Below are positions 33,041 through 46,540 of a DNA stretch of 64,000 bases, one piece after another. Source of the stretch: Bacteroidota bacterium (lineage in GTDB: Bacteria > Bacteroidota > Bacteroidia > Bacteroidales > Paludibacteraceae). The notes beneath the pieces are model-generated. The model did not search any database and was not told the origin of the DNA. It saw nothing but the letters and a program-made list of their open reading frames with translations. The position numbers and the translations under genes were made by a program. The stretch spans positions 1 to 64,000 of the forward strand of contig JAFNAS010000019.1 in assembly GCA_017860295.1 (NCBI GenBank), given 5' to 3'. Position 1 is the stretch's first letter. Each line of letters opens with the position of its first letter.

Positions 33041-33145
33041 ATATTTGTGTCGGTTATCTGCTTATAAGGTTTGGCATCCATCGTTACTTTTTGCTGCGTA
33101 GCTAGACTGTCCATACACTCTGAATAAAGTTTGCGCTGAATCTAT

Positions 33146-33320
33146 CGTCCCGAAAGGACTTACAATGCCATAGGTATGACAAGTTTATAGCAATAGTGAA
33201 ATATAGAAAGCCGAAGAGTGCCGTAGGAACGGCACATGCTAATCTATCAAAGCAATCTAAACCGGTTTGTTGTGACGAACCATTGGAGTTGATAAACAAG
33301 TCAAGCCGACTTCATTGATT
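33146..33320 (+). repeat. Dispersed repeat, copy 1 (left flank of island)
   Basis: Segments AATCTATCGTCCCGA, AATGCCATAGGTATGACA, GTGCCGTAGGAACGGCA and GCCGACTTCATTGAT recur in the same order and orientation at 40845-41022. Short palindromes (GTGCCGTAGGAACGGCAC) would fold into hairpins. This is an interspersed noncoding element of a kind common in Bacteroidetes genomes. A 65-codon minus frame inside it is a repeat artefact. Confidence 0.7.
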
Positions 33321-33524: not shown

Positions 33525-34433
33525 CTAGAAACGCATAAAGAAATCCCACGTCTCTTTTGCTATCCAGTTGACATCCGATCCGGGATCTTTAACGTTGTCG
33601 GTATGACCACCCACAAACGAACCGAACATCACCGGATATTCCGCAGGAAGTCCTTTAATTTCAGTGGTGACATGAGTCGGTGTTGTAGCTAACGGTAATT
33701 CCGGCAATTGGTTTAAGCCATTGTCTTCGATGTGTGTCAATACACAATACTTACCACCTTGCTTTTTTTCATCCGAATTGACATATTTGCAAAGACCGTC
33801 CTGCGTACCTGTTGTGCTAAAGTAGGCTAACGGTTTGTGCTTGTTTTCCGGAAGATAAATATTCCAGTTGGCCGGAGCATAACAAGCAACAGCACGAAGA
33901 TCACTCTGAAATTCTAAAGATAACGAATAGGTAAACATGGCACCAAAGCTAAATCCGCAGCAAAATATACGGGAAGTGTCGATGCTTAGTTTATCTTTGA
34001 ACAGTTGAAGCATATCGGCAAAGAAGATATGGTCTTTATCATCACGTGCACGCCAGGGAGTTTGGTCGGTATATCCTTGAGGTGCAACGAAAATAACAGG
34101 AACATTGTCTTTTTCGGCATAGGTTTTAAGGCCATAATAATTATTATCAACCATTGTTTTCATACTTCCCCCCATCATGTGCATGGTAAAAATCAAACGG
34201 TACGTTTTGTTTTTGTCGTAGTTCTTGGGAATATCGATGGTATATTGGCGGGTAAGCCCTGCACTTGTGATGGTATACGTCCCGCTCTTAAAATCTCCGA
34301 GTTCTTTACCGTAACCGGCACTGGGAGTTGGCATATTTTTCAGGTGACGGGCAACTTCGACCGGTTTATCTGATTGTGCATTGAGCGCAAAAAAGGAAGC
34401 TAAAAGGATAAATAGTACAACTGTTTTTTTCAT
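33525..34433 (-). CDS. Secreted CE1-like esterase (feruloyl/acetyl esterase type)
   Basis: The 302-residue protein has a signal peptide (MKKTVVLFILLASFFALNAQ) and an alpha/beta-hydrolase fold with the nucleophile elbow GFSFGA (S162), an oxyanion region TMHMMGGS and a GGHTDN histidine near the C-terminus. It resembles LpqC/PHB-depolymerase-like and feruloyl esterases that release acyl groups from plant polysaccharides. It lies alone between a dispersed repeat and the AT-rich operon. Confidence 0.8.
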   Translation of the reverse strand: MKKTVVLFILLASFFALNAQSDKPVEVARHLKNMPTPSAGYGKELGDFKSGTYTITSAGLTRQYTIDIPKNYDKNKTYRLIFTMHMMGGSMKTMVDNNYYGLKTYAEKDNVPVIFVAPQGYTDQTPWRARDDKDHIFFADMLQLFKDKLSIDTSRIFCCGFSFGAMFTYSLSLEFQSDLRAVACYAPANWNIYLPENKHKPLAYFSTTGTQDGLCKYVNSDEKKQGGKYCVLTHIEDNGLNQLPELPLATTPTHVTTEIKGLPAEYPVMFGSFVGGHTDNVKDPGSDVNWIAKETWDFFMRF

Positions 34434-35072
34434 CGTTCATGATTTTTAAATGATTCTTGGTTATTTCTTATTACTTTCTATGCATCAGACACTGCTGTGC
34501 GTTTCTTTACAAGGCAAAGATACACATATTCCTGCTTGAGCGTATGCCAATTGTGGAAGGTTGGGTGCGTCGCTTGCGGATTGAATGGCTGAATAACTGA
34601 ATGATTGAGTGATAGAATGATTGAATGTATGCGCTTTGGAGAGCTATACTCTTTTCTGTTTTGGTTGCTTACTCAATGCTCTGTTGATCTCCGATCTGTT
34701 CATTGTCATCAGCGTCACTTGTTCTCCGATTACTTCATTGCCGTCTGCTTTAGCTGACGGGTTGGGTTCAATGTTTGCTATAGGCTTTAGCCAAATAGTG
34801 TTTCGGCTGAAGCCGTTTTTGCTTCTCTCTCTGTCGGTTGAAACTGACGTCAATCGAACTCTGTCGTTATCACTGTGTTCTGATGCGATACCTTATTGCT
34901 CGGAATTGTTGCAAGTATGCTTTGCAAAAGAGTGGCAGGAGAGAAAGCTGGATGTGATTATATCAGTCGTCATTATAGATCAAATTAATCTTTCATATAA
35001 AAGAAATATTTGATAGTAGAGATAAGATAGTGATGAAAATGGTGCAAGGGTTATAGAAAAATATCAAATATC
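34434..35072. repeat. Intergenic region: period-8 repeat and hairpin cluster
   Basis: From 34581 to 34627 the sequence repeats with period ~8 (variants of CTGAATGA). Between 34741 and 34850 three short hairpins follow one another: CCGTC...GACGG (34741-34760), GGCTTTAGCC...GGCTGAAGCC (34783-34814), and GTCGGTTGAAACTGAC. The last type is a familiar dispersed hairpin family in Bacteroidetes noncoding DNA. A 130-codon plus frame crosses this region but has no gene-like features. Confidence 0.5.
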
Positions 35073-36914
35073 TCATTTTACGATTAATTCGTATTTATCC
35101 TCGAAAAAGAGGTTTAATGTATTACGATTATCTTCGCGAAGTACAAATTCAACTTCTTGATCAGTTAATTCACAAATACCAAAATTTCTAATATAATTTC
35201 CATTTAGAGAAAAGTAATTTGATGAATATGGCTTACTTGTGGATTTAATGTAGTACCAGAAAACACTTGATTCCATTATCTTCTTCAAAATGATCATTTC
35301 AGTTTCTGAACTTCCAACTACAGCCAATCCATTATAAAAAAGAAGATCTTCATCTGAATTAATTATAAAACTTGGTGTTCTGTCAGAGTATTTAGGAAAG
35401 AACATTTTGTTCTTAGTCTTTTCTAAAGATTGAGTTCGACCAAATGCAAACCAATTTTCGTATTTGCCATTTCCTTTATCTCGTCCGGCTAAAATGCTTC
35501 GTTTCTTTCTTAAGTACTTATATGCTTCAGGATATTTTTCTTTAATTAATTCTTCAGATAATAATTTGGGCTTTGCTTGTTGATCGTATGGAAAAATGAC
35601 TTTTTCTTTTAGCTCACTTAATATGACTTCACGACTTAGCTTGTTTGAATTCACGATGTCTTTACAAATACCTTTTTCAATTCGGTATAAACTGCCATTT
35701 TGCAAATAAAAATAATTTTCATCCTCACTGACGGGTTTGAAAATGTAAATATCGTTTTTAAGCGTGGCTATACCATGCCTTGTTTGATAAAGCTCACCAA
35801 ATGGTATGCCTGTAGATTCGATCCTTGAAATTACTTTATTGTCTTTTAGATTCCATCCTTTTTTTGAATCAAGTAGATTATAATCGATTTTTTTAAAAGA
35901 ATGGCTATTTTTCAATTTAATACTGTCGGCAGAAGCGTATGATATGAAGTTTTGTTTGCGGTTCTCAATAAAGCAAATGCAGGTATATGTGTTTTTGGAT
36001 TTAAAAACTTGTTCGGATCCAAAATCAATTATACTAAATACAAGAGATACCCTTTGGAAATAATCTCGCAATGCTCTACCATTTAAACTTTTGAAAAAAG
36101 AATTCATCGTTATGAAGCCAAGAAATCCATTTAGTGATAAATTTTCGATTGCAATTTGAAAAAATGGAATATAAAGATCTGAATTTCCGGATTTGCATAC
36201 TTCCCATTTTTTTAGCTTTTCCTTAGTCTCTTCTTCGAGATTTCGAGCACAAACATAAGGAGGATTTCCTAAGATTGTGTCAAATCCGCAGAATTGTTCA
36301 ATCTTTACAGACCAATCGAAATCAAGTGAGTCTCCCTGAAACAAATTAAATATAAAATGTTCCTCATCTTCACCTACACTTATTGCCAATAACGACAGTA
36401 AAAGTTTTGATCTGTTTATTGAGTAATCCTGAATATCTAATCCAAAGATGTGATCTCTAAAAATATTTGAGTATGATTTGCTTGTTTTTTGTTTCAATGT
36501 AATTGATGCATTTAATAAGAAGCCACCACAACCACAAGCTATATCTGAAATTTTAAAAGCATTTGAAATTTCAGTTCGCTTTCCAATCGTTTGGTTAACT
36601 ATATATTCCCTGATATAGGAGGGGGTGTATATAGCACCATTGATTATTCTATCGGCAGGAGAAATTACAAATTCAAAAAGTTCTATAAGTTCTTCAAATC
36701 CAAACTGTCCTTTTTCACGTGAAATAACTGATATGAAATTGATTAGTTTGGCGTATTCTTCAGTATTTGTTTTGAGGATAAGATACTCTTTGAGTAATTT
36801 ATTGTGAGAGAACTGAATCTTATTTATTTCAAGAAAAGCTGAAACAATAAGTCGGTCAACATCCATTGGAACTGTTGAACAATGTTGACTTAGATATCTA
36901 TAGCTGTTTTTCAT
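35073..36914 (-). CDS. Eco57I/TaqI-class adenine-N6 DNA methyltransferase
   Basis: The 613-residue protein has the IYTPSYIREYIV lead-in (~95-106), SAM-binding motif I DIACGCGGFLLNA (124-136), GLDIQ (158-162) and catalytic NPPY (217-220), as in type IIG and TaqI-class enzymes. The C-terminal ~300 residues resemble a TaqI-type target-recognition domain (TRHGIATLKNDIYIF; FGRTQSL; YSSNYFSLNG). No PD-(D/E)xK nuclease domain is visible, so cleavage would need a partner, plausibly the HNH gene just upstream, which overlaps it by four bases (ATGA). Base composition is much more AT-rich than SbcCD or the nif genes. Confidence 0.85.
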   Translation of the reverse strand: MKNSYRYLSQHCSTVPMDVDRLIVSAFLEINKIQFSHNKLLKEYLILKTNTEEYAKLINFISVISREKGQFGFEELIELFEFVISPADRIINGAIYTPSYIREYIVNQTIGKRTEISNAFKISDIACGCGGFLLNASITLKQKTSKSYSNIFRDHIFGLDIQDYSINRSKLLLSLLAISVGEDEEHFIFNLFQGDSLDFDWSVKIEQFCGFDTILGNPPYVCARNLEEETKEKLKKWEVCKSGNSDLYIPFFQIAIENLSLNGFLGFITMNSFFKSLNGRALRDYFQRVSLVFSIIDFGSEQVFKSKNTYTCICFIENRKQNFISYASADSIKLKNSHSFKKIDYNLLDSKKGWNLKDNKVISRIESTGIPFGELYQTRHGIATLKNDIYIFKPVSEDENYFYLQNGSLYRIEKGICKDIVNSNKLSREVILSELKEKVIFPYDQQAKPKLLSEELIKEKYPEAYKYLRKKRSILAGRDKGNGKYENWFAFGRTQSLEKTKNKMFFPKYSDRTPSFIINSDEDLLFYNGLAVVGSSETEMIILKKIMESSVFWYYIKSTSKPYSSNYFSLNGNYIRNFGICELTDQEVEFVLREDNRNTLNLFFEDKYELIVK

Positions 36915-37471
36915 TGAATTGCTCTAAGATTTTTTAAATAATCTTGGTATTTAAAAGATACTTGAATATATAGTTCCATAGCTAGCTCATTGTGAGTACT
37001 CTCAATTAGTACCCGAAGATCAGTTAATTTTTGTTCTAATTGCTCTAACATCCAAATTATACTATATCTTTTCAAATATAATTTTAGCTTTATATACATA
37101 TATTTGGCAGACTCAGATTCTTCTTTTGGATATATGTTACCGAATTCATCTCTATAAAAATACAAGTTATAGTCTGTATCTACAGGATCTAAATAGGTTC
37201 CGCAATCATTTCCTTTAGCTCTATTCACGTAAGAGCAGCAATATACAAGATTAGAATAGTTTGTCTCAAGCTCTGGGTATATTGATTTTGGTTTAAAATG
37301 GTCTATTTGAAAATTTGTCTTTCCGCCAAACCAAAAATCTGAACATCCAGTATAACCACATCTTGATTTAAAATCGTCAGCAAGATATGTCTTGTAGTAT
37401 CTGTAATCTGAAAATTGTTTGCCAGAATAAGTCCTTTCTGGAATGACATTTCGAAAAAATAATTCAGTCAT
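36911..37471 (-). CDS. HNH-family endonuclease
   Basis: The 186-residue protein has a CGYTGC zinc/structural pair (38-43), the core QIDHFKPKS (55-63) giving the catalytic Asp-His, and a downstream NYSNLVYCCSYVNRAKGN (71-88) with the asparagine and further cysteines. This is the McrA-like HNH fold. A C-terminal helical part (~115-186) could bind a partner. It overlaps both the receiver gene (8 bases) and the methyltransferase (4 bases), implying translational coupling. It is the probable effector nuclease of the operon. Confidence 0.85.
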   Translation of the reverse strand: MTELFFRNVIPERTYSGKQFSDYRYYKTYLADDFKSRCGYTGCSDFWFGGKTNFQIDHFKPKSIYPELETNYSNLVYCCSYVNRAKGNDCGTYLDPVDTDYNLYFYRDEFGNIYPKEESESAKYMYIKLKLYLKRYSIIWMLEQLEQKLTDLRVLIESTHNELAMELYIQVSFKYQDYLKNLRAIQ

Positions 37472-38090
37472 CTTTTTTTTCTAGTGTTTTTGTTAGGTCG
37501 TCTACTTTTTTAAGAAGTTCAGACAAATCAGAAGCTTGTTGATCATCTCGTAAAATGTTAGATATACGGCTTTCCTTGTCTAAGGCCTTTTCTATTTTGG
37601 AATCAAGGTCTGATAATTCTTCTTTTTCTATGGCATCAAGTTTTCTTTTTTTACTTTCAGCGATTAATTCTAAAAGTCTTTTTTCTTCTTTTTCTATTTT
37701 GTGTTTGTATTTTTCTATTTGAGCTTTGACTCTTTCTAAAAAATTTTCACCTTCATCCAACTCTTTTTTTTCATAAATAATATTGACGTCTTCTCCTTTA
37801 GATATAGCATCATCTTCATAGGATGTTAAAATAAAAACGGGAAAGCCTTCTCTCTTTTTTAAAAAATGACTGACTAAATTAGTGCCATCATAGTGTATCG
37901 TGGAAAGTTGTTCCGCAAAATCAAAATCAGAAATAATGGCATCAACATGACTTTCCAAAATTTCGTTACAAGTTGCTTCAATGTCATTCTTTGGAATAAT
38001 TGGAATCACGTCAAAATGATTATATGAAAATCGTTGGAATCTTCTTGTGTCAGATTGATCTTCATCAATGTACGCAACTTTATATTTCAT
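37464..38090 (-). CDS. Receiver-domain protein with coiled-coil tail
   Basis: The 208-residue protein has a response-regulator receiver fold: acidic pair YIDED (D9-D11), phospho-acceptor D55 in IISDFDF, T89 in ILTSYED and a lysine at ~108 in YEKKE. After residue ~115 it is a charged coiled coil (EKYKHKIEKEEKRLLELIAE) and has no DNA-binding or enzymatic output domain. It starts four bases after the upstream ATPase/kinase-like gene. The likely role is a phospho-switch between the sensor and the nuclease/methyltransferase through protein contacts. Confidence 0.85.
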   Translation of the reverse strand: MKYKVAYIDEDQSDTRRFQRFSYNHFDVIPIIPKNDIEATCNEILESHVDAIISDFDFAEQLSTIHYDGTNLVSHFLKKREGFPVFILTSYEDDAISKGEDVNIIYEKKELDEGENFLERVKAQIEKYKHKIEKEEKRLLELIAESKKRKLDAIEKEELSDLDSKIEKALDKESRISNILRDDQQASDLSELLKKVDDLTKTLEKKDD

Positions 38091-38094
38091 AATA

Positions 38095-40428
38095 CTACAG
38101 ATTATGCGGTAATGTAACTCTTATTTTAAAATTTGGTCTCGATTGTAAAATTTCTACATCTCCATTATACTCATCAACAGTAGATTTCACAATCCACATT
38201 CCTAGTCCTGTACCGATTTTTTCACCGGTTTTATCATCTCTTTTGGTCGTAAAAAACGGTTGAAATATTTTATTGGGATCTGTAATCTCCTCTAAAAGCC
38301 CTGGGCCATAATCTTGATAAATAAGATTAATTCCATTTGTCTCTAGTGGGTTAAAACTAAAACTTAACTGGATCTCTCGGATATTTCCAGAATCTTTTCG
38401 CTTGTAAGCATCAACAGAATTTGTGATGAGGTTATTAAAAATACCATCCAAATCAATTTCGTATCCTTTAAAATAAACGTCCTTAAATATTCCTTTGTTT
38501 ATAGTCAATTTGATATTTCGTCTTGATAGTAAGGAATTCCACATTTTTCCAAGGCTTTCTATATATGTGACCAAATTTATCACTTTTCTTGTTCTTTTAT
38601 CTTTTCTTACAGATGAAATTGAAAATTCAAGCCAAGATTTTAATCTTTCATCCTGTTTTCTCATATCAGATAGCATGATATAGGGATCAAAGAACTCAGG
38701 AAGTTGATTTAACTTGTTGAGATCAATAATTTGCTCTAATACATTCTTAAGCTCTTCTGTCCTAGGTAAAATGCTGTCGGTGTGGTTTCTAAATTCATGT
38801 GCGAATGATGTGACAATTAAACCCGCACTTGCTAAAACTCTTAAAATTTTTTGCTCTTCCTGTAATTCTTCAACATCTTCTTTGTAAGCCTCAATGGCAC
38901 TTATCAAAGTCTTTTTTTCTTCATTAGGGTCAATAGTCTCTTGATTGCTTTTGTTTTCTTTTTTGCTTTTAATTATTCTATCGGCATCTTCTTTTGCTTT
39001 ATTTTTCTTGTTGTTTTCATCATATATCTTTTTGAGTGTCATCATTATTTGATTCCTATCTTGCTCAAAAATTTCAATTATAGATTTTAAAACTTCTTTA
39101 AATAAAGCGAAGGTGTCGTTTTCTTGTAATCCCTCACGGCTTGATTTGTCCTCAAAATTTATATTATCAATTCTCGAAATATTTACAATACCATATACTT
39201 GTTGAGGACGTACTCTATATCCAGGTCTTGTCACAGTTGGATTGCTTAATGCTCTTTTCCCAAGGTCTAACCAGTCAAAAGAGCTGCTCTTTGTTTCTCC
39301 ATAGGGCCTTACTCTGAAATTATCTCTGAATATTTTAATTCCACCAAATTTTTCCAACCAACTGGTGCGATTGTTATAATTGACAGATTTATACGGATAT
39401 TTACTAATATCTTCATCTTTTTCTTGTCCACCACCTCTTTTTAAGAAATAAAATGAAAATGTAAAAGGCCCGATCTTACTTAGATTATTGTTTTTATCAA
39501 TATCTTTATAACCAGCAATAAGAGTTTCTAGTTTTGTGGAAATTTCAAATTTTCCTTTTTCAAATGCAGAGAATTTATATTGTGGCTGATTTAATTTTGA
39601 TTTTTCAAAAAAACCAATTCTCTTTAAATCTCCAAAATTTAATTCATTCCTGTAAACTTCAATATTAACTATTTGATTATCAAAAACAGTTGCTGAGACT
39701 TTATAATCATAATCATCACAAATAGATGGAGAGACTTTTCCATATTTATCAGGTTCTAATGTGCTGAATAGGAATAATTGAAAAATATTTGTATCTAAAG
39801 GTGGAACTAATATTTCCAAATTTGAAAATAATGATTGCGTAGCTCTTGCATCCCACATATCCTTTAGATTCTCAATGGAAATGAGAGTCCCTTTTTCTTC
39901 TTTCCAAAAGTCAATAATTGATTTATTAAATCCAGTGGAGTGTTGTATGCCAATTATTTCTTGCAATAAATTGCTGTTGCCAATTTGTATTGTTGCCTTT
40001 ATGTCAGATATTACAGCCCCAGTATTGTTAAATTGATCCCAATCGACTTGCCAAATAATACTTTCGGAGTTTGACATTTTTGTTAGTATTATACTGGATT
40101 TACCAAGTCGATCTAATGCAAATCTACCAATTCCTTTAGCTCCAGTTTTTACCCGAGATTTTGTTTTGAAATTAATTTTTTTATCATCAGTTCCAATGGT
40201 CATCCATTGTTTTTTGATGATTGTTTCAGACATGCCATCTCCATTATCTAATATTCTAATAATATCATTTAGAGCATCAATGATAATGACACAGACAGAA
40301 GCATCAGCATCGTAGCTATTTTTTACTAATTCTATAATAGCACCTTCTGCATTGGCAAAGTTTTCTTGTCCAATAAGCCGTGCTGTTCTTGCCGAGACTG
40401 TGAATGGAATTTGAGTATTTTCTATCAT
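38095..40428 (-). CDS. Double-GHKL protein: Hsp90/MORC-like ATPase plus histidine-kinase core
   Basis: The 777-residue protein carries two Bergerat-fold ATPase modules. The N-terminal one (~20-210) has ELVKNSYDADA (33-43), DNGDGM (61-66) and GAKGIGRFA (96-104), like Hsp90, MutL and MORC. A middle transducer-like region (~210-430) and a lysine/glutamate coiled coil (~455-530) follow. The C-terminal part is a histidine kinase: H-box SFAHEFRNH (H544), N-box FNNLITNSVDAY (664-675), DYGPGL (706-711) and GTGLGMWIV (739-747). No membrane segments are present. It heads the operon and is expected to phosphorylate the receiver encoded next. The N-terminal module may clamp or sense DNA. Confidence 0.88.
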   Translation of the reverse strand: MIENTQIPFTVSARTARLIGQENFANAEGAIIELVKNSYDADASVCVIIIDALNDIIRILDNGDGMSETIIKKQWMTIGTDDKKINFKTKSRVKTGAKGIGRFALDRLGKSSIILTKMSNSESIIWQVDWDQFNNTGAVISDIKATIQIGNSNLLQEIIGIQHSTGFNKSIIDFWKEEKGTLISIENLKDMWDARATQSLFSNLEILVPPLDTNIFQLFLFSTLEPDKYGKVSPSICDDYDYKVSATVFDNQIVNIEVYRNELNFGDLKRIGFFEKSKLNQPQYKFSAFEKGKFEISTKLETLIAGYKDIDKNNNLSKIGPFTFSFYFLKRGGGQEKDEDISKYPYKSVNYNNRTSWLEKFGGIKIFRDNFRVRPYGETKSSSFDWLDLGKRALSNPTVTRPGYRVRPQQVYGIVNISRIDNINFEDKSSREGLQENDTFALFKEVLKSIIEIFEQDRNQIMMTLKKIYDENNKKNKAKEDADRIIKSKKENKSNQETIDPNEEKKTLISAIEAYKEDVEELQEEQKILRVLASAGLIVTSFAHEFRNHTDSILPRTEELKNVLEQIIDLNKLNQLPEFFDPYIMLSDMRKQDERLKSWLEFSISSVRKDKRTRKVINLVTYIESLGKMWNSLLSRRNIKLTINKGIFKDVYFKGYEIDLDGIFNNLITNSVDAYKRKDSGNIREIQLSFSFNPLETNGINLIYQDYGPGLLEEITDPNKIFQPFFTTKRDDKTGEKIGTGLGMWIVKSTVDEYNGDVEILQSRPNFKIRVTLPHNL

Positions 40429-40538
40429 TTCAATGTCGTTCTTGATTAAGCAACTGAAAGACTACAGGAGGTCTTCTAAATCTCTTCGAAAAGCCATTTT
40501 TACATTTTAGTATCTATATACTTCGTTTATATAAATCG

Positions 40539-40712
40539 TTAATTACTATAACATTTAAGTATATTCAAAGTGGATTGTATCTCATTAATTTCTCCTCTTG
40601 AAACTATTCTTGCACTCTTATCAAGCTACTCTGCTAATGATTTACTGCTTAGATTTTTTAAATAATATTGCACCAATGCTATTGATCGCGTTTTTACTCA
40701 AACAAACTGCAT
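40539..40712 (-). pseudogene. Broken small XRE-type regulator upstream of the island operon
   Basis: A 57-codon frame from ATG 40712 reads, after an early TGA, as SIALVQYYLKNLSSKSLAE, then a TAG, then LDKSARIVSRGEINEIQSTL. This follows the pattern of the small XRE helix-turn-helix proteins that sit before restriction genes (KxLAExLgKsxxtVSRwxxNexQPSLxxL). Two in-frame stops make it a probable pseudogene, or one copy of a decayed control gene. It lies 110 bases upstream of the double-GHKL gene on the same strand. Confidence 0.45.
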
Positions 40713-40718
40713 TGTATG

Positions 40719-40726
40719 CAAAGATA
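40719..40726 (-). promoter_or_regulatory. Candidate -7 box for the island operon
   Basis: The minus strand reads TATCTTTG, a full TAnnTTTG match, immediately before the broken XRE frame and about 290 bases before the GHKL gene. No clear -33 element is seen. Confidence 0.35.
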
Positions 40727-40844
40727 ATTACTTTTTATGAATGAAGTCATCTTGACTTTTCGTTATCTATTCAATTTTGTGTAAAACAGGCATAAAGTAT
40801 CGTACCTACGGTACTTTATTCTACCCCGAAAACATGTCTTGCTA

Positions 40845-41022
40845 TAAATCTATCGTCCCGAGGAACTTAAAATGCCATAGGCATGACAGGTTTATAGAAA
40901 ATAGTCAACAAATCAAGCTAAAAATTCCGTAGGAATGGCATAGGTTGAAACATCAAAATAACTTGCACCTTGTTTGTTTTGGCAAATCATCGACATTGCA
41001 GAGAAAGTTAAAACGACTTCAA
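40845..41022 (+). repeat. Dispersed repeat, copy 2 (right flank of island)
   Basis: This is the counterpart of 33146-33320: AAATCTATCGTCCCGAGG, AATGCCATAGGCATGACA, TTCCGTAGGAATGGCAT and ACGACTTCAATATCAAT occur in the same order and orientation. Just before it, GTACCTACGGTACTTT (40801-40816) is a related short palindrome. The two copies form direct repeats about 7.7 kb apart, bracketing the esterase and the four-gene operon. Confidence 0.65.
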
Positions 41023-42147: not shown

Positions 42148-42412
42148 AGTATAAGTTGTTTAAAATGACACTATGTGAGATTAATTAAAGCCAAAAATAT
42201 GTAATATATTTCACATTGCAACAAGTTTAATAAAGATTAATATTTTTTTATTTTTCGGGTTGGCTGTTTTATGTTTGTTACAATAGGTGCTTTATATGCC
42301 GTTTTTGTTGTTCGATGTAGTTATTTTATGCTTTTAATCCCTATAAAGTGAAATGCTTTGTGGTGTCTAAATATGAAAATTAAATATCAACGTTTGGCTA
42401 CTATTTGTTTAT

Positions 42413-42832
42413 CATTCTATTTTGTTTGCACTTGATCGCTCATTGTTCTGCAACCATTATCTTCTGCTTTGAAACCATCGCATTCTGTTATCGTTTCATT
42501 GCTCTATGTTTGGTCACCATCGATCGATATTTCGCTATCATCGGCTTCTGTTTGCTCACCATCGGTCTCTGCTTTGCCACCATTGCCGTGTGCTTGGTTA
42601 CCATCACTGTGTGATTCCGTTTCATCGCCGTGTGCTTGGTCACCATCGTCGTGTGTTTCCATTCCATCGCCGTGTGCTTGTTTGCAATCGCCGTGTGCTT
42701 TTAGTTCATCGCTCTATGTTTGGTTATCATCGGCTTCTGCTTGCTCACCATCGGTCTCTGTTCGGTTACGATATTGTTCTGCTTTTTTTTCATCGGCTTC
42801 TGTTTATTCACCATCGACTTGTGTTCGGCTTT
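42413..42832. repeat. Tandem array of about 20 units, 21 bp each
   Basis: Units begin with CATCG and continue as CCGTGTGCTTGGTCAC, GCTTCTGTTTGCTCAC or TCTCTGTTCGGTTAC. They remain strictly in phase for 420 bases with 30-50% divergence between units. Minus-strand translation gives heptads of the MVTKHTA/MVSKQKP kind broken by stop codons, so I do not call a gene. It is the second array with a 21-bp period in this window. Confidence 0.85.
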
Positions 42833-44908: not shown

Positions 44909-46540
44909 TTATTCCGGCACACTGTTCTCGCGGTATTTTCGGTAGTCGATATCGAATTTTTGCATTCTCAGACTCAGTATCCTGCGGCTCAGACCCAGCT
45001 CTTTGGCCGTTGCCGAAATATTTCCCTTGTGAAACGTCAGCGACTCTACAATCATTTCCAGCTCAAGCGAGTCGAGTTTGGCAATCAGTCCGTTGCTGTG
45101 AGAATGTTTAGCCGATATCGGGGTTTGCAGCGAGAGCGGGAGATCATGCGTGTGTATAATATCGTCTTCTGTCAGAATAACGGCACGCTCGATCACGTTT
45201 TCGAGCTCTCTTACATTGCCCGGCCACGAGTAGGTCATCAACATCTCCTGTACGGTAGAGGGAATACGTTTTATCTCTTTCTCGAACTTCTTGCCGAATT
45301 TAGCCACAAAAGCTTCGGCAAGGATAATGATGTCGCTGCTACGTTCCCGTAGCGGAGGAATCACAATGGGAAAAACATTGAGCCGGTAGAACAAATCCTC
45401 GCGAAAGGTGCCGCTCTTGACCATCGATTCCAGATTGCGGTTGGTGGCTGTGATAATGCGGATGGATACTTTGATCGATTTGTTGCCACCCACACGTTCG
45501 AAGGTTCGCTCCTGCAACACACGCAACAATTTTGCCTGCATGGGTAACGACAGTTCGCCCACTTCGTCAATAAACACCGTACCGCTGTTTGCCTCTTCAA
45601 AACGTCCTTTCCGCATAGCATCCGCTCCGGTAAAAGCCCCTTTCTCATGGCCGAACAGTTCGCTTTCTATCACACTTTCGGGCAATGCGGCACAGTTGAA
45701 TTTAATAAAAGGGGCATCGGCATCCGGACTGTTGTAATGAATGGCGCTTGCCACCAGCTCTTTGCCCACTCCGCTTTCGCCCAATAGCAATACGGTCGAT
45801 TTGGTTTGCGCTATTTTGCTAATCAGCGAGTATACTTCCTGCATCGGTTTGGAATTGCCGATGATGTTGGAGGGTCGAAACCGCTCTTTCAACGCATCCC
45901 GCAGGCGTTCGTTCTCTTTTTTCAGATGCGATTTGTTTTCGTTTTCCAGCAAATAGAGTTCTACCGCTTGTGCAATCATCGAGGCAATAATGCCCAGCAT
46001 CTCTACATCGTAATTGAGCTGTTCCGGATCGCGGCAAATCCGTTCGACACTGATTGCACCCAATACTTTGTCGCCCCGCAGAATAGGGATGCAGACAAAG
46101 GAGAGTTCCGAATCGGCCGGATTTTCCACGCTTTGTGTTTTGTTCAGAAAATTGGGCTCCTCGCTGATACGGGGTACCACAATCATTTTACCCGTCTCTA
46201 CCACTTTGCCGGTAATTCCTTCGCCGATGGAGTAGACGCCGCGTGTCTCTTCTTCTGTTGTCAGTCCGATACTGTCGTGGATAAAAATCTTTCCTGTCTT
46301 ACTGTTGTAAAGATTCACCATGCCGCGTATCACCCCCATATCTTCTTTCATGATCTTGAGCAGTATGCCGAGCGTTTCGGAAAGATTCCGGTTGTTAATC
46401 ACCGTTTTGCTCATCTGAAAGAGAGGCGATAGCATAGCACCCCGACAAATTATTCTTGAGTTGAGCCTGATCATCTGACAATCGGTTCCCTGACAGAAAT
46501 GGTTGGCTTTTTTTGTAGTCGTGTTGGGAAGAGTATTCAT
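44909..46540 (-). CDS. nifA: NifA/AnfA-type sigma-54-dependent activator
   Basis: The 543-residue protein has an N-terminal GAF domain (~45-190), a AAA+ sigma-54 interaction domain with Walker A GESGVGKE and the GHEKGAFTGA loop, Walker B GTVFIDEVGEL and WPGNVRELENV, and a C-terminal Fis-type helix-turn-helix (NISATAKELGLSRRILSLRM). It activates nitrogenase promoters with RpoN. The linker after the AAA+ domain has no CxxxxC pair, so it lacks the oxygen-sensing cysteines of alpha-proteobacterial NifA. It overlaps nifV by four bases. Whether it should be called AnfA is open, since the only nitrogenase here is the Fe type. Confidence 0.9.
   Translation of the reverse strand: MNTLPNTTTKKANHFCQGTDCQMIRLNSRIICRGAMLSPLFQMSKTVINNRNLSETLGILLKIMKEDMGVIRGMVNLYNSKTGKIFIHDSIGLTTEEETRGVYSIGEGITGKVVETGKMIVVPRISEEPNFLNKTQSVENPADSELSFVCIPILRGDKVLGAISVERICRDPEQLNYDVEMLGIIASMIAQAVELYLLENENKSHLKKENERLRDALKERFRPSNIIGNSKPMQEVYSLISKIAQTKSTVLLLGESGVGKELVASAIHYNSPDADAPFIKFNCAALPESVIESELFGHEKGAFTGADAMRKGRFEEANSGTVFIDEVGELSLPMQAKLLRVLQERTFERVGGNKSIKVSIRIITATNRNLESMVKSGTFREDLFYRLNVFPIVIPPLRERSSDIIILAEAFVAKFGKKFEKEIKRIPSTVQEMLMTYSWPGNVRELENVIERAVILTEDDIIHTHDLPLSLQTPISAKHSHSNGLIAKLDSLELEMIVESLTFHKGNISATAKELGLSRRILSLRMQKFDIDYRKYRENSVPE

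Follow-up and report, generated by a model that had tools for sequence, protein, structure and literature searches.

Soluble kinases with the domain order HATPase_c_3 - HEF_HK - HATPase_c and a Response_reg_2 partner were described near restriction-modification (R-M) genes by Bellieny-Rabelo et al. (2021, PMC8011034); the accessible part of that paper links the pair to R-M genes in several phyla, most conspicuously to C5 methylases, and also shows HNH and N6/N4 methylase neighbours. ParaMORC/MORC ATPases, consisting of a GHKL domain and a downstream domain and sometimes located beside HNH genes, were reported in R-M operons in the available sections of an earlier study (Iyer et al. 2008, PMC2292703). 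Here, a four-gene operon encoding a double-GHKL kinase (K), a receiver (R), an HNH nuclease (H), and a predicted adenine DNA methyltransferase (M) is described from the window, a stretch of 64,000 nucleotides of contig JAFNAS010000019.1 (GenBank assembly GCA_017860295.1) from a bacterium of the Paludibacteraceae. Among relatives of this operon, K, R, and H travel together as a chassis and M is exchanged, which is presented as new here. With a little better than even probability, K-R-H-M is a horizontally moving restriction system in which M would modify and probably recognize DNA and K-R would relay a signal to H.

Comparison with described systems

The locus resembles the HEF_HK/Response_reg_2 pair, as far as the accessible part of PMC8011034 describes it, in having a double-GHKL kinase beside a receiver-type gene and R-M genes. 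However, both Pfam definitions of that pair failed here at E ≤ 0.01. HEF_HK (PF19191) was found in 0 of 57 kinases, with a model that matched nothing anywhere and so had no positive control, and Response_reg_2 (PF19192) was found in 0 of 83 receivers, with a positive control that worked (matches in 8 of the 395 genomes searched from the window's phylum and to one such protein in hmmscan). In the kinase tree, the 82 K-R-H-M kinases form their own branch, separated from seven kinases with other partners by a split support of 0.97. By the Pfam test, K-R-H-M is a branch, with a predicted HNH nuclease and N6-methylase, that is distinct from the family described in PMC8011034. Because such a family was described in 2021, the idea that R-M loci use two-component logic has a precedent. 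The four-gene set matches no single PADLOC-DB 2023 system. The novelty lies in this four-gene branch and in the exchange of M, with a chance of a wider class. A description of the four-gene set was not found in searches of open-licence PMC papers, and the available part of PMC12839542 on BREX-related systems contains nothing on it. HATPase and REC are among the figure abbreviations for predicted systems in the part of the DefensePredictor paper at hand (PMC13092281), and overlap with one of those predictions is possible.

The N-terminal part of K links the operon to the paraMORC/MORC ATPases through matches to MORC3 in sequence and to MORC2 in fold, whereas the words "receiver," "response regulator," and "two-component" do not occur in the text of PMC2292703 that was searched. 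A nuclease also depends on a GHKL ATPase for defence in the Shedu protein VcSduA, whose GHKL domain is N-terminal and in which E27A and K557A each abolish activity according to the available part of PMC12137116. However, VcSduA as presented there is a single protein with a PD-(D/E)xK nuclease and has neither a kinase core nor a receiver or methylase. Among HNH proteins, H falls into the PtuB-like group, as in Septu and the retrons Ec78/Eco7, but neither the PtuA ATPase nor the reverse transcriptase of those systems is among the four proteins, which include a kinase and a receiver instead.

Two-component logic in defence is known from Detocs (DtcABC), whose effector is a nucleosidase, and BREX and DISARM are built on core genes such as PglZ, BrxC, and a helicase, among others. 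The operon shares the two-component logic of Detocs but has an HNH nuclease and a DNA methylase, with no nucleosidase domain in the four proteins. M has partial similarity to PglX/DrmMI, but K and R match no BREX or DISARM core gene, and none was found for H among the 25 of 61 matched families listed. In the case of the Ssp systems, an SspB-SspC-SspD operon on another contig of the source genome (contig C11) has its own double-GHKL kinase and receiver-like gene, but the window operon has an adenine methylase and not phosphorothioation genes.

Organization and conservation of the four-gene unit

The four genes are transcribed in the order K, R, H, M, all on the minus strand (Table 1). The open reading frame coordinates agree with the tight packing noted in the preliminary description, with a 4-base gap between K and R and overlaps of 8 bases between R and H and 4 bases between H and M.

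Table 1. Positions of the operon and of related or surrounding features (coordinates are those of the window unless a locus is named)
Feature	Position	Strand	Description
K, double-GHKL kinase	38095..40428	-	777 aa; Hsp90/MORC-like ATPase fused to histidine kinase (predicted)
R, receiver	37464..38090	-	208 aa; D9/E10, D55, T89, K108 pocket; C-terminal helices ~116-206
H, HNH nuclease	36911..37471	-	186 aa; PtuB-like; D57-H58, N74, N83
M, Eco57I-class adenine DNA methyltransferase (predicted)	35073..36914	-	613 aa; NPPY at 217-220
AT-rich stretch holding the operon	35001..41000	.	about 30-33% GC
C11 Ssp-kinase-receiver-X cassette	L147:6912-9001 and L143:77-8484		HTH gene, then SspB-SspC-SspD, double-GHKL kinase, 368-aa receiver-like protein, 253-aa X

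A kinase alignment was searched against genome contigs and yielded 487 relatives, the best 80 of which were examined. R directly follows K in all 80, and H and M are also present in 76; the other four loci (L028, L034, L058, and L073) end at a contig edge. The conserved co-occurrence of the four families, which the preliminary description had proposed to look for, was thus found in 76 of 76 uncut genome loci (those not broken off at a contig edge), in the order K-R-H-M in 73 and M-K-R-H in 3 (L019, L055, and L094). These 76 loci, the window, 6 plasmid loci, and 3 of 5 viral contigs make up 86 complete systems. The median spacing is 1 base between K and R, -4 between R and H, and -4 at M, with start codons assigned mechanically, and frame-broken copies are found at L009, L012, L038, L047, and L051. 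According to record titles, the systems are spread over Bacteroidota, Proteobacteria, Campylobacterota, and Paenibacillus, with Methanolobus, Verrucomicrobia, and others represented only by metagenome bins, in which mis-binning can occur.

A search that started from the receiver profile retrieved 5 of 395 genomes from the phylum of the window at E < 1e-30, namely the window's own and four others, all four of which carry K-R-H-M. One receiver-bait genome (G025) appears to be the Flavobacterium record of L042, and this check is accordingly not fully independent of the kinase search. At 1e-4, 220 of the 395 genomes matched; judged solely by their short alignments within long frames, the weaker matches resemble ordinary response regulators.

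Exchange of the methyltransferase on a conserved chassis

The co-variation of the four proteins was calculated for 78 of the 86 systems, 3 near-identical and 5 fragmented ones being left out. Spearman correlations of pairwise identities were 0.75 for K-R, 0.64 for K-H, and 0.72 for R-H, versus 0.25 for K-M, 0.22 for R-M, and 0.17 for H-M, and the three tested differences stayed above zero in all of 300 half-samples. Over all 86 systems, the values were 0.62 to 0.73 among K, R, and H and 0.23 to 0.35 with M. Within the 78 systems, 362 pairs have kinases with at least 50% identity; in 102 of these pairs, the relative BLAST score of M is under 15%, and in no pair is that of H. The pair L030/L031 is an example, with identities of 66% for K, 53% for R, 62% for H, and 20% for M. 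By single linkage, M is divided into five families (42, 32, 2, 1, and 1 members), and H forms one family. Families of M are defined here at the BLAST level and are distinct only at that level because an N6-methylase core is common to all of them. On the kinase tree with 82 tips, the M family changed about 16 times (17 with weak nodes collapsed) against a mean of 29.6 in shuffles, which indicates that M is inherited but often replaced. Swaps of a recognition domain inside M were considered and rejected, since 13 close pairs displayed no sharp identity drop in one part of the protein; the exchange therefore involves the whole gene.

An H that read the site of M on its own would be expected to change along with M. 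Because H changes with K and R and not with M, sequence recognition is more likely to come from M, or from M together with K, than from H. This pattern also argues, without being decisive, against an ordinary type II R-M pair, in which H and M would read the same site independently and K-R would tune activity or timing according to the state of the cell. Pairing an HNH nuclease with an Eco57I-class methylase would be plausible for a type II system, and the PADLOC-DB 2023 models that M matches are those of type II and IIG methyltransferases, with the label MTase_II at 1e-104. In addition, 32 of the 86 systems have a small helix-turn-helix (HTH) gene directly before the operon (for example, L072:7808-8008); these genes are of three types, and we take them to resemble R-M control genes. 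In the window, none was found in the 600 bases preceding the operon. However, H does not follow M in the 362 related-kinase pairs and is only about 190 aa long across the systems, and K and R stand beside H and M in every uncut genome locus of a search that began from K. A type II pair with an accessory kinase and receiver is thus quite unlikely.

Predicted properties of the four proteins

K contains HATPase_c_3 at residues 27 to 148 and HATPase_c at residues 657 to 775 (Pfam), and both domains were found in all 57 kinases tested. An N-terminal ATPase with a middle domain is followed by a long helical linker, the helix bearing H544, and a C-terminal histidine-kinase ATPase. The structure model of K has a mean predicted local distance difference test (pLDDT) score of 82.2 and a predicted template modelling score of 0.78. 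In Foldseek searches, the C-terminal part matched the cores of ZraS, CpxA, and HK853 (E values of 1e-10 to 4e-12 over ~240 to 280 columns; template modelling [TM] scores of about 0.5 to 0.6 by target), and the N-terminal part matched Hsp90 and MORC2 (E values of about 1e-10 over ~480 to 530 columns). The sequence profile of K matches MORC3 at 2.6e-7, whereas matches in PADLOC-DB 2023 are weak and local at most. H544 is present in all 86 systems, the next residue being Glu in 63 and Asp in 23, and Glu33 of the first ATPase is present in all 83 kinases covering the position. K would thus be a soluble-type fusion of an Hsp90/MORC-like ATPase with a histidine-kinase core, its domains being defined by profiles and its fold by prediction.

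For R from the window itself, Pfam gave no convincing match. Among the 83 aligned receivers, 36 matched Response_reg at E ≤ 0.01 (best, 6.2e-6), matches that were not demonstrated to reach the curated cut-off, and no meaningful match to R was found in PADLOC-DB 2023. The AlphaFold model of R (mean pLDDT, 83.8) retrieved mainly receivers and response regulators among the 50 Foldseek matches listed, and the pocket residues D9/E10, D55, T89, and K108 lie at the usual receiver positions, with D55 conserved in 86 of the 86 systems and K108 and T89 in 84 each. The remainder of the protein (about residues 116 to 206) is helical where an output domain would be. No DNA-binding output was seen, in agreement with the preliminary description. 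The hallmarks of a two-component pair, a phospho-acceptor His before the histidine-kinase ATPase and a receiver Asp pocket, are present by conservation and folds, and the invariance of H544 and D55 suggests that K and R are a phosphorelay pair in which K would phosphorylate R.

The Pfam matches of H to HNH_4 and HNH barely exceed the cut-offs, and the HNH-motif residues H58 and N74 are found in all 86 systems. In the window H, neither CxxC pair keeps its second Cys (T41 and V82 stand there instead); the same two cysteines are lost together in 34 of 86 H proteins, mostly to Thr and Val, all four cysteines are kept in 51, and 1 H is truncated. M matches Eco57I at 1.8e-27 and N6_Mtase at 2.1e-18 in Pfam. 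Its solved relatives found by phmmer are an adenine-specific methyltransferase (8cxz and 7lni), which we take to be CamA, and BseCI. In the NPP[YF] motif, both prolines are kept in 86 of 86 systems, and one system has Lys instead of Asn at 217. The family and the intact motifs suggest that M methylates adenine. The conservation of active-site residues over the 86 systems suggests selection on the two ATPases, on the relay, and on the two enzymes.

Proposed mode of action

In the proposed restriction system, M would methylate host DNA at adenines within its own target sites. K would act as an ATP-driven, probably dimeric Hsp90/MORC-like clamp on a histidine-kinase core, with ATP bound at both ends. 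When an assembly of M and K encounters DNA that lacks its mark, or some different indication of invasion, the N-terminal ATPase might close, driven by ATP, and transmit this movement along the helical linker to the H544 helix, after which H544 would be phosphorylated and the phosphate passed to D55 of R. Because R lacks a DNA-binding output, it would act on a protein, most likely H, as gene order (the two genes overlap) and co-variation suggest. Phosphorylated R would then switch H on or release it, and H would cut nucleic acid; the term "licensed" in the preliminary description presupposes a direction of control that goes beyond the sequence. A precedent for the gating of a defence nuclease by a GHKL ATPase is VcSduA, as reported in the available part of PMC12137116.

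Several observations weigh against this interpretation. The baits came from four-gene systems and 80 of the 487 relatives were seen, which biases the survey towards intact sets. The TM scores of K against Hsp90 and MORC2 are low (0.26 to 0.30 by query and 0.33 to 0.39 by target), and the model is weak at residues 526 to 542, directly before H544, so that the exact dimerization helix is less certain. Fusions of R with H or of K with R were not found among the 86 systems, and the action of R on H thus rests on gene order and co-variation. In the 421 pairs of the 86 systems with kinases of at least 50% identity, the correlations with M rise to 0.55 for K-M, 0.43 for R-M, and 0.49 for H-M, versus 0.76 for K-R, 0.67 for K-H, and 0.79 for R-H; this narrowing of the gap indicates that M is partly co-inherited. 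Replacement of M is also no proof of changed specificity, since two methylases can have the same target although they belong to different families. Known defence families are rare beside the operon, with at most 3 of 128 flanking proteins for any of those listed at 1e-10, in a scan of the nearest open reading frames of 120 to 899 aa (128 of 129 listed) without a control set of unrelated proteins; defence-island enrichment around the operon is accordingly weak.

Finally, the target of H may be other than DNA, because the PtuB proteins of Septu PtuAB (PMC13096335) and retron Eco7 (PMC11555353) cut tRNA-Tyr according to the available parts of both papers. H would then fit an abortive infection system in which K-R senses infection and frees H against host RNA such as tRNA, with M as a sensor or safety mark. 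All 83 H proteins tested match the PADLOC PtuB models, and the H profile finds PtuB chains in the solved structures of Septu and of a retron complex. However, these PDB matches are weak (best, 1.6e-4), the PtuB-like HNH group is broad, and the DNA methylase that accompanies H in all 76 uncut genome loci points to DNA. An RNA-directed abortive system therefore seems unlikely.

Related kinase-receiver cassettes

On contig C11 of the source genome, an HTH gene is followed by SspB, SspC, and SspD and then by genes for a double-GHKL kinase (732 aa), a receiver-like protein (368 aa), and a protein designated X (253 aa). SspB matched PDB 6juf at 5.5e-24, and SspC and SspD were called by PADLOC with E values of 0 and 1.1e-90, respectively. 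The 368-aa protein has a sub-threshold iREC match, and the HTH protein shares 56% identity, over 64 residues, with the one encoded upstream of the K-R-H-M system L072. Similar genes occur on a Hymenobacter plasmid (L149:9590-16173), where the kinase, receiver, and X are 42%, 33%, and 27% identical to those of C11 and an N-6 methylase follows them. On a Paraburkholderia plasmid, a methyltransferase and a kinase (27%) are accompanied by two further genes that align weakly with the C11 cassette (17% and 19%). A receiver of the C11 type was found at 1e-20 only in the source genome among 198 genomes of the phylum. From two good loci, the C11 cassette looks like a kinase-receiver-effector chassis whose modification module has been swapped between phosphorothioation and methylation.

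Kinases of the same kind were also found with C5 methylases. At L013, the gene at the receiver position matches Response_reg at 2.8e-5, whereas at L098 and L129 the gene at this position has no Pfam match. Searches of a phage collection returned two distant kinase matches only, both on records without annotation; one of them is L129, in which the kinase lies between a C5-methylase-like gene and a 438-aa gene at the receiver position. The Response_reg_2 loci L140 to L142 contain a C5 methylase, a kinase of near 1,000 aa, and a regulator of near 530 aa. As a separate observation, on contig C21 of the source genome, a C5 cytosine methylase gene precedes one for a GHKL protein with a length of at least 706 aa (L003:279-3609), a third GHKL-linked modification locus in this genome.

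A broader reading, to which we give somewhat less than an even chance, is a general class of two-component restriction, in which an Hsp90/MORC-histidine-kinase fusion would read DNA modification and fire a nuclease via a phosphorylated receiver. Modification modules (N6-methyladenine, 5-methylcytosine, and phosphorothioate) and effectors (HNH and X) would be plug-ins, and a swap of the methylase would retarget the system with the nuclease unchanged. In restriction, the nuclease or its complex usually reads DNA directly. If the proposal is true, a histidine-aspartate relay gating a nuclease would be a new control principle for restriction, and a chassis that takes methylases of different families would show how specificity changes while the nuclease stays constant. 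It would also suggest a role for unexplained kinase-receiver genes at R-M loci and connect MORC-like ATPases with modified-DNA sensing in a way that can be tested.

Mobility and genomic surroundings

The operon is probably moving horizontally, as it is AT-rich, occurs on plasmids, and lies within about 6.5 kb of a TraG-like conjugation ATPase gene cluster in 8 of 85 loci, with one member of the cluster checked by Pfam. Such neighbours and the copies on plasmids and 3 of 5 viral contigs are also what a stability or exclusion module would show, that is, one that retains its own conjugative element or bars rivals, with phage being unimportant. However, no neighbour gene family recurs in more than 8 of the 85 loci, and this explanation, which we consider improbable, is compatible with the restriction system proposed above, the target being the sole difference.

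The preliminary description had called the locus an AT-rich, repeat-flanked island. The low G+C content stands, with 30 to 33% over 35 to 41 kb versus 39 to 52% in the 8 kb on either side, in a window that is also AT-rich at 5 to 7 kb (33 to 37%) and 11 to 15 kb (36 to 39%). The repeat (33131-33251 and 40839-40957) is real but weak as evidence. It is dispersed and intergenic, with 9 matches in the source genome, counting the query itself and the left copy, and was for this reason rejected as a boundary or as evidence of transfer. The left copy lies, as seen from the operon, beyond a hydrolase-like gene (33525-34433), relatives of which occur in 4 other genomes among 40 relatives (83 to 91% identity). 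In 3 of those 4 genomes compared, this gene alone aligns with the window, and an empty site could therefore not be defined.

Elsewhere in the window, a repeat region with a 21-base period is found at 42392-42828. A 543-aa protein encoded at 44909-46540 on the minus strand matches the PADLOC model RtcR_PspF2--CARF_AAA_HTH over residues 205 to 531 (8.9e-113) and, judging from the model name, is presumably a sigma-54 activator.

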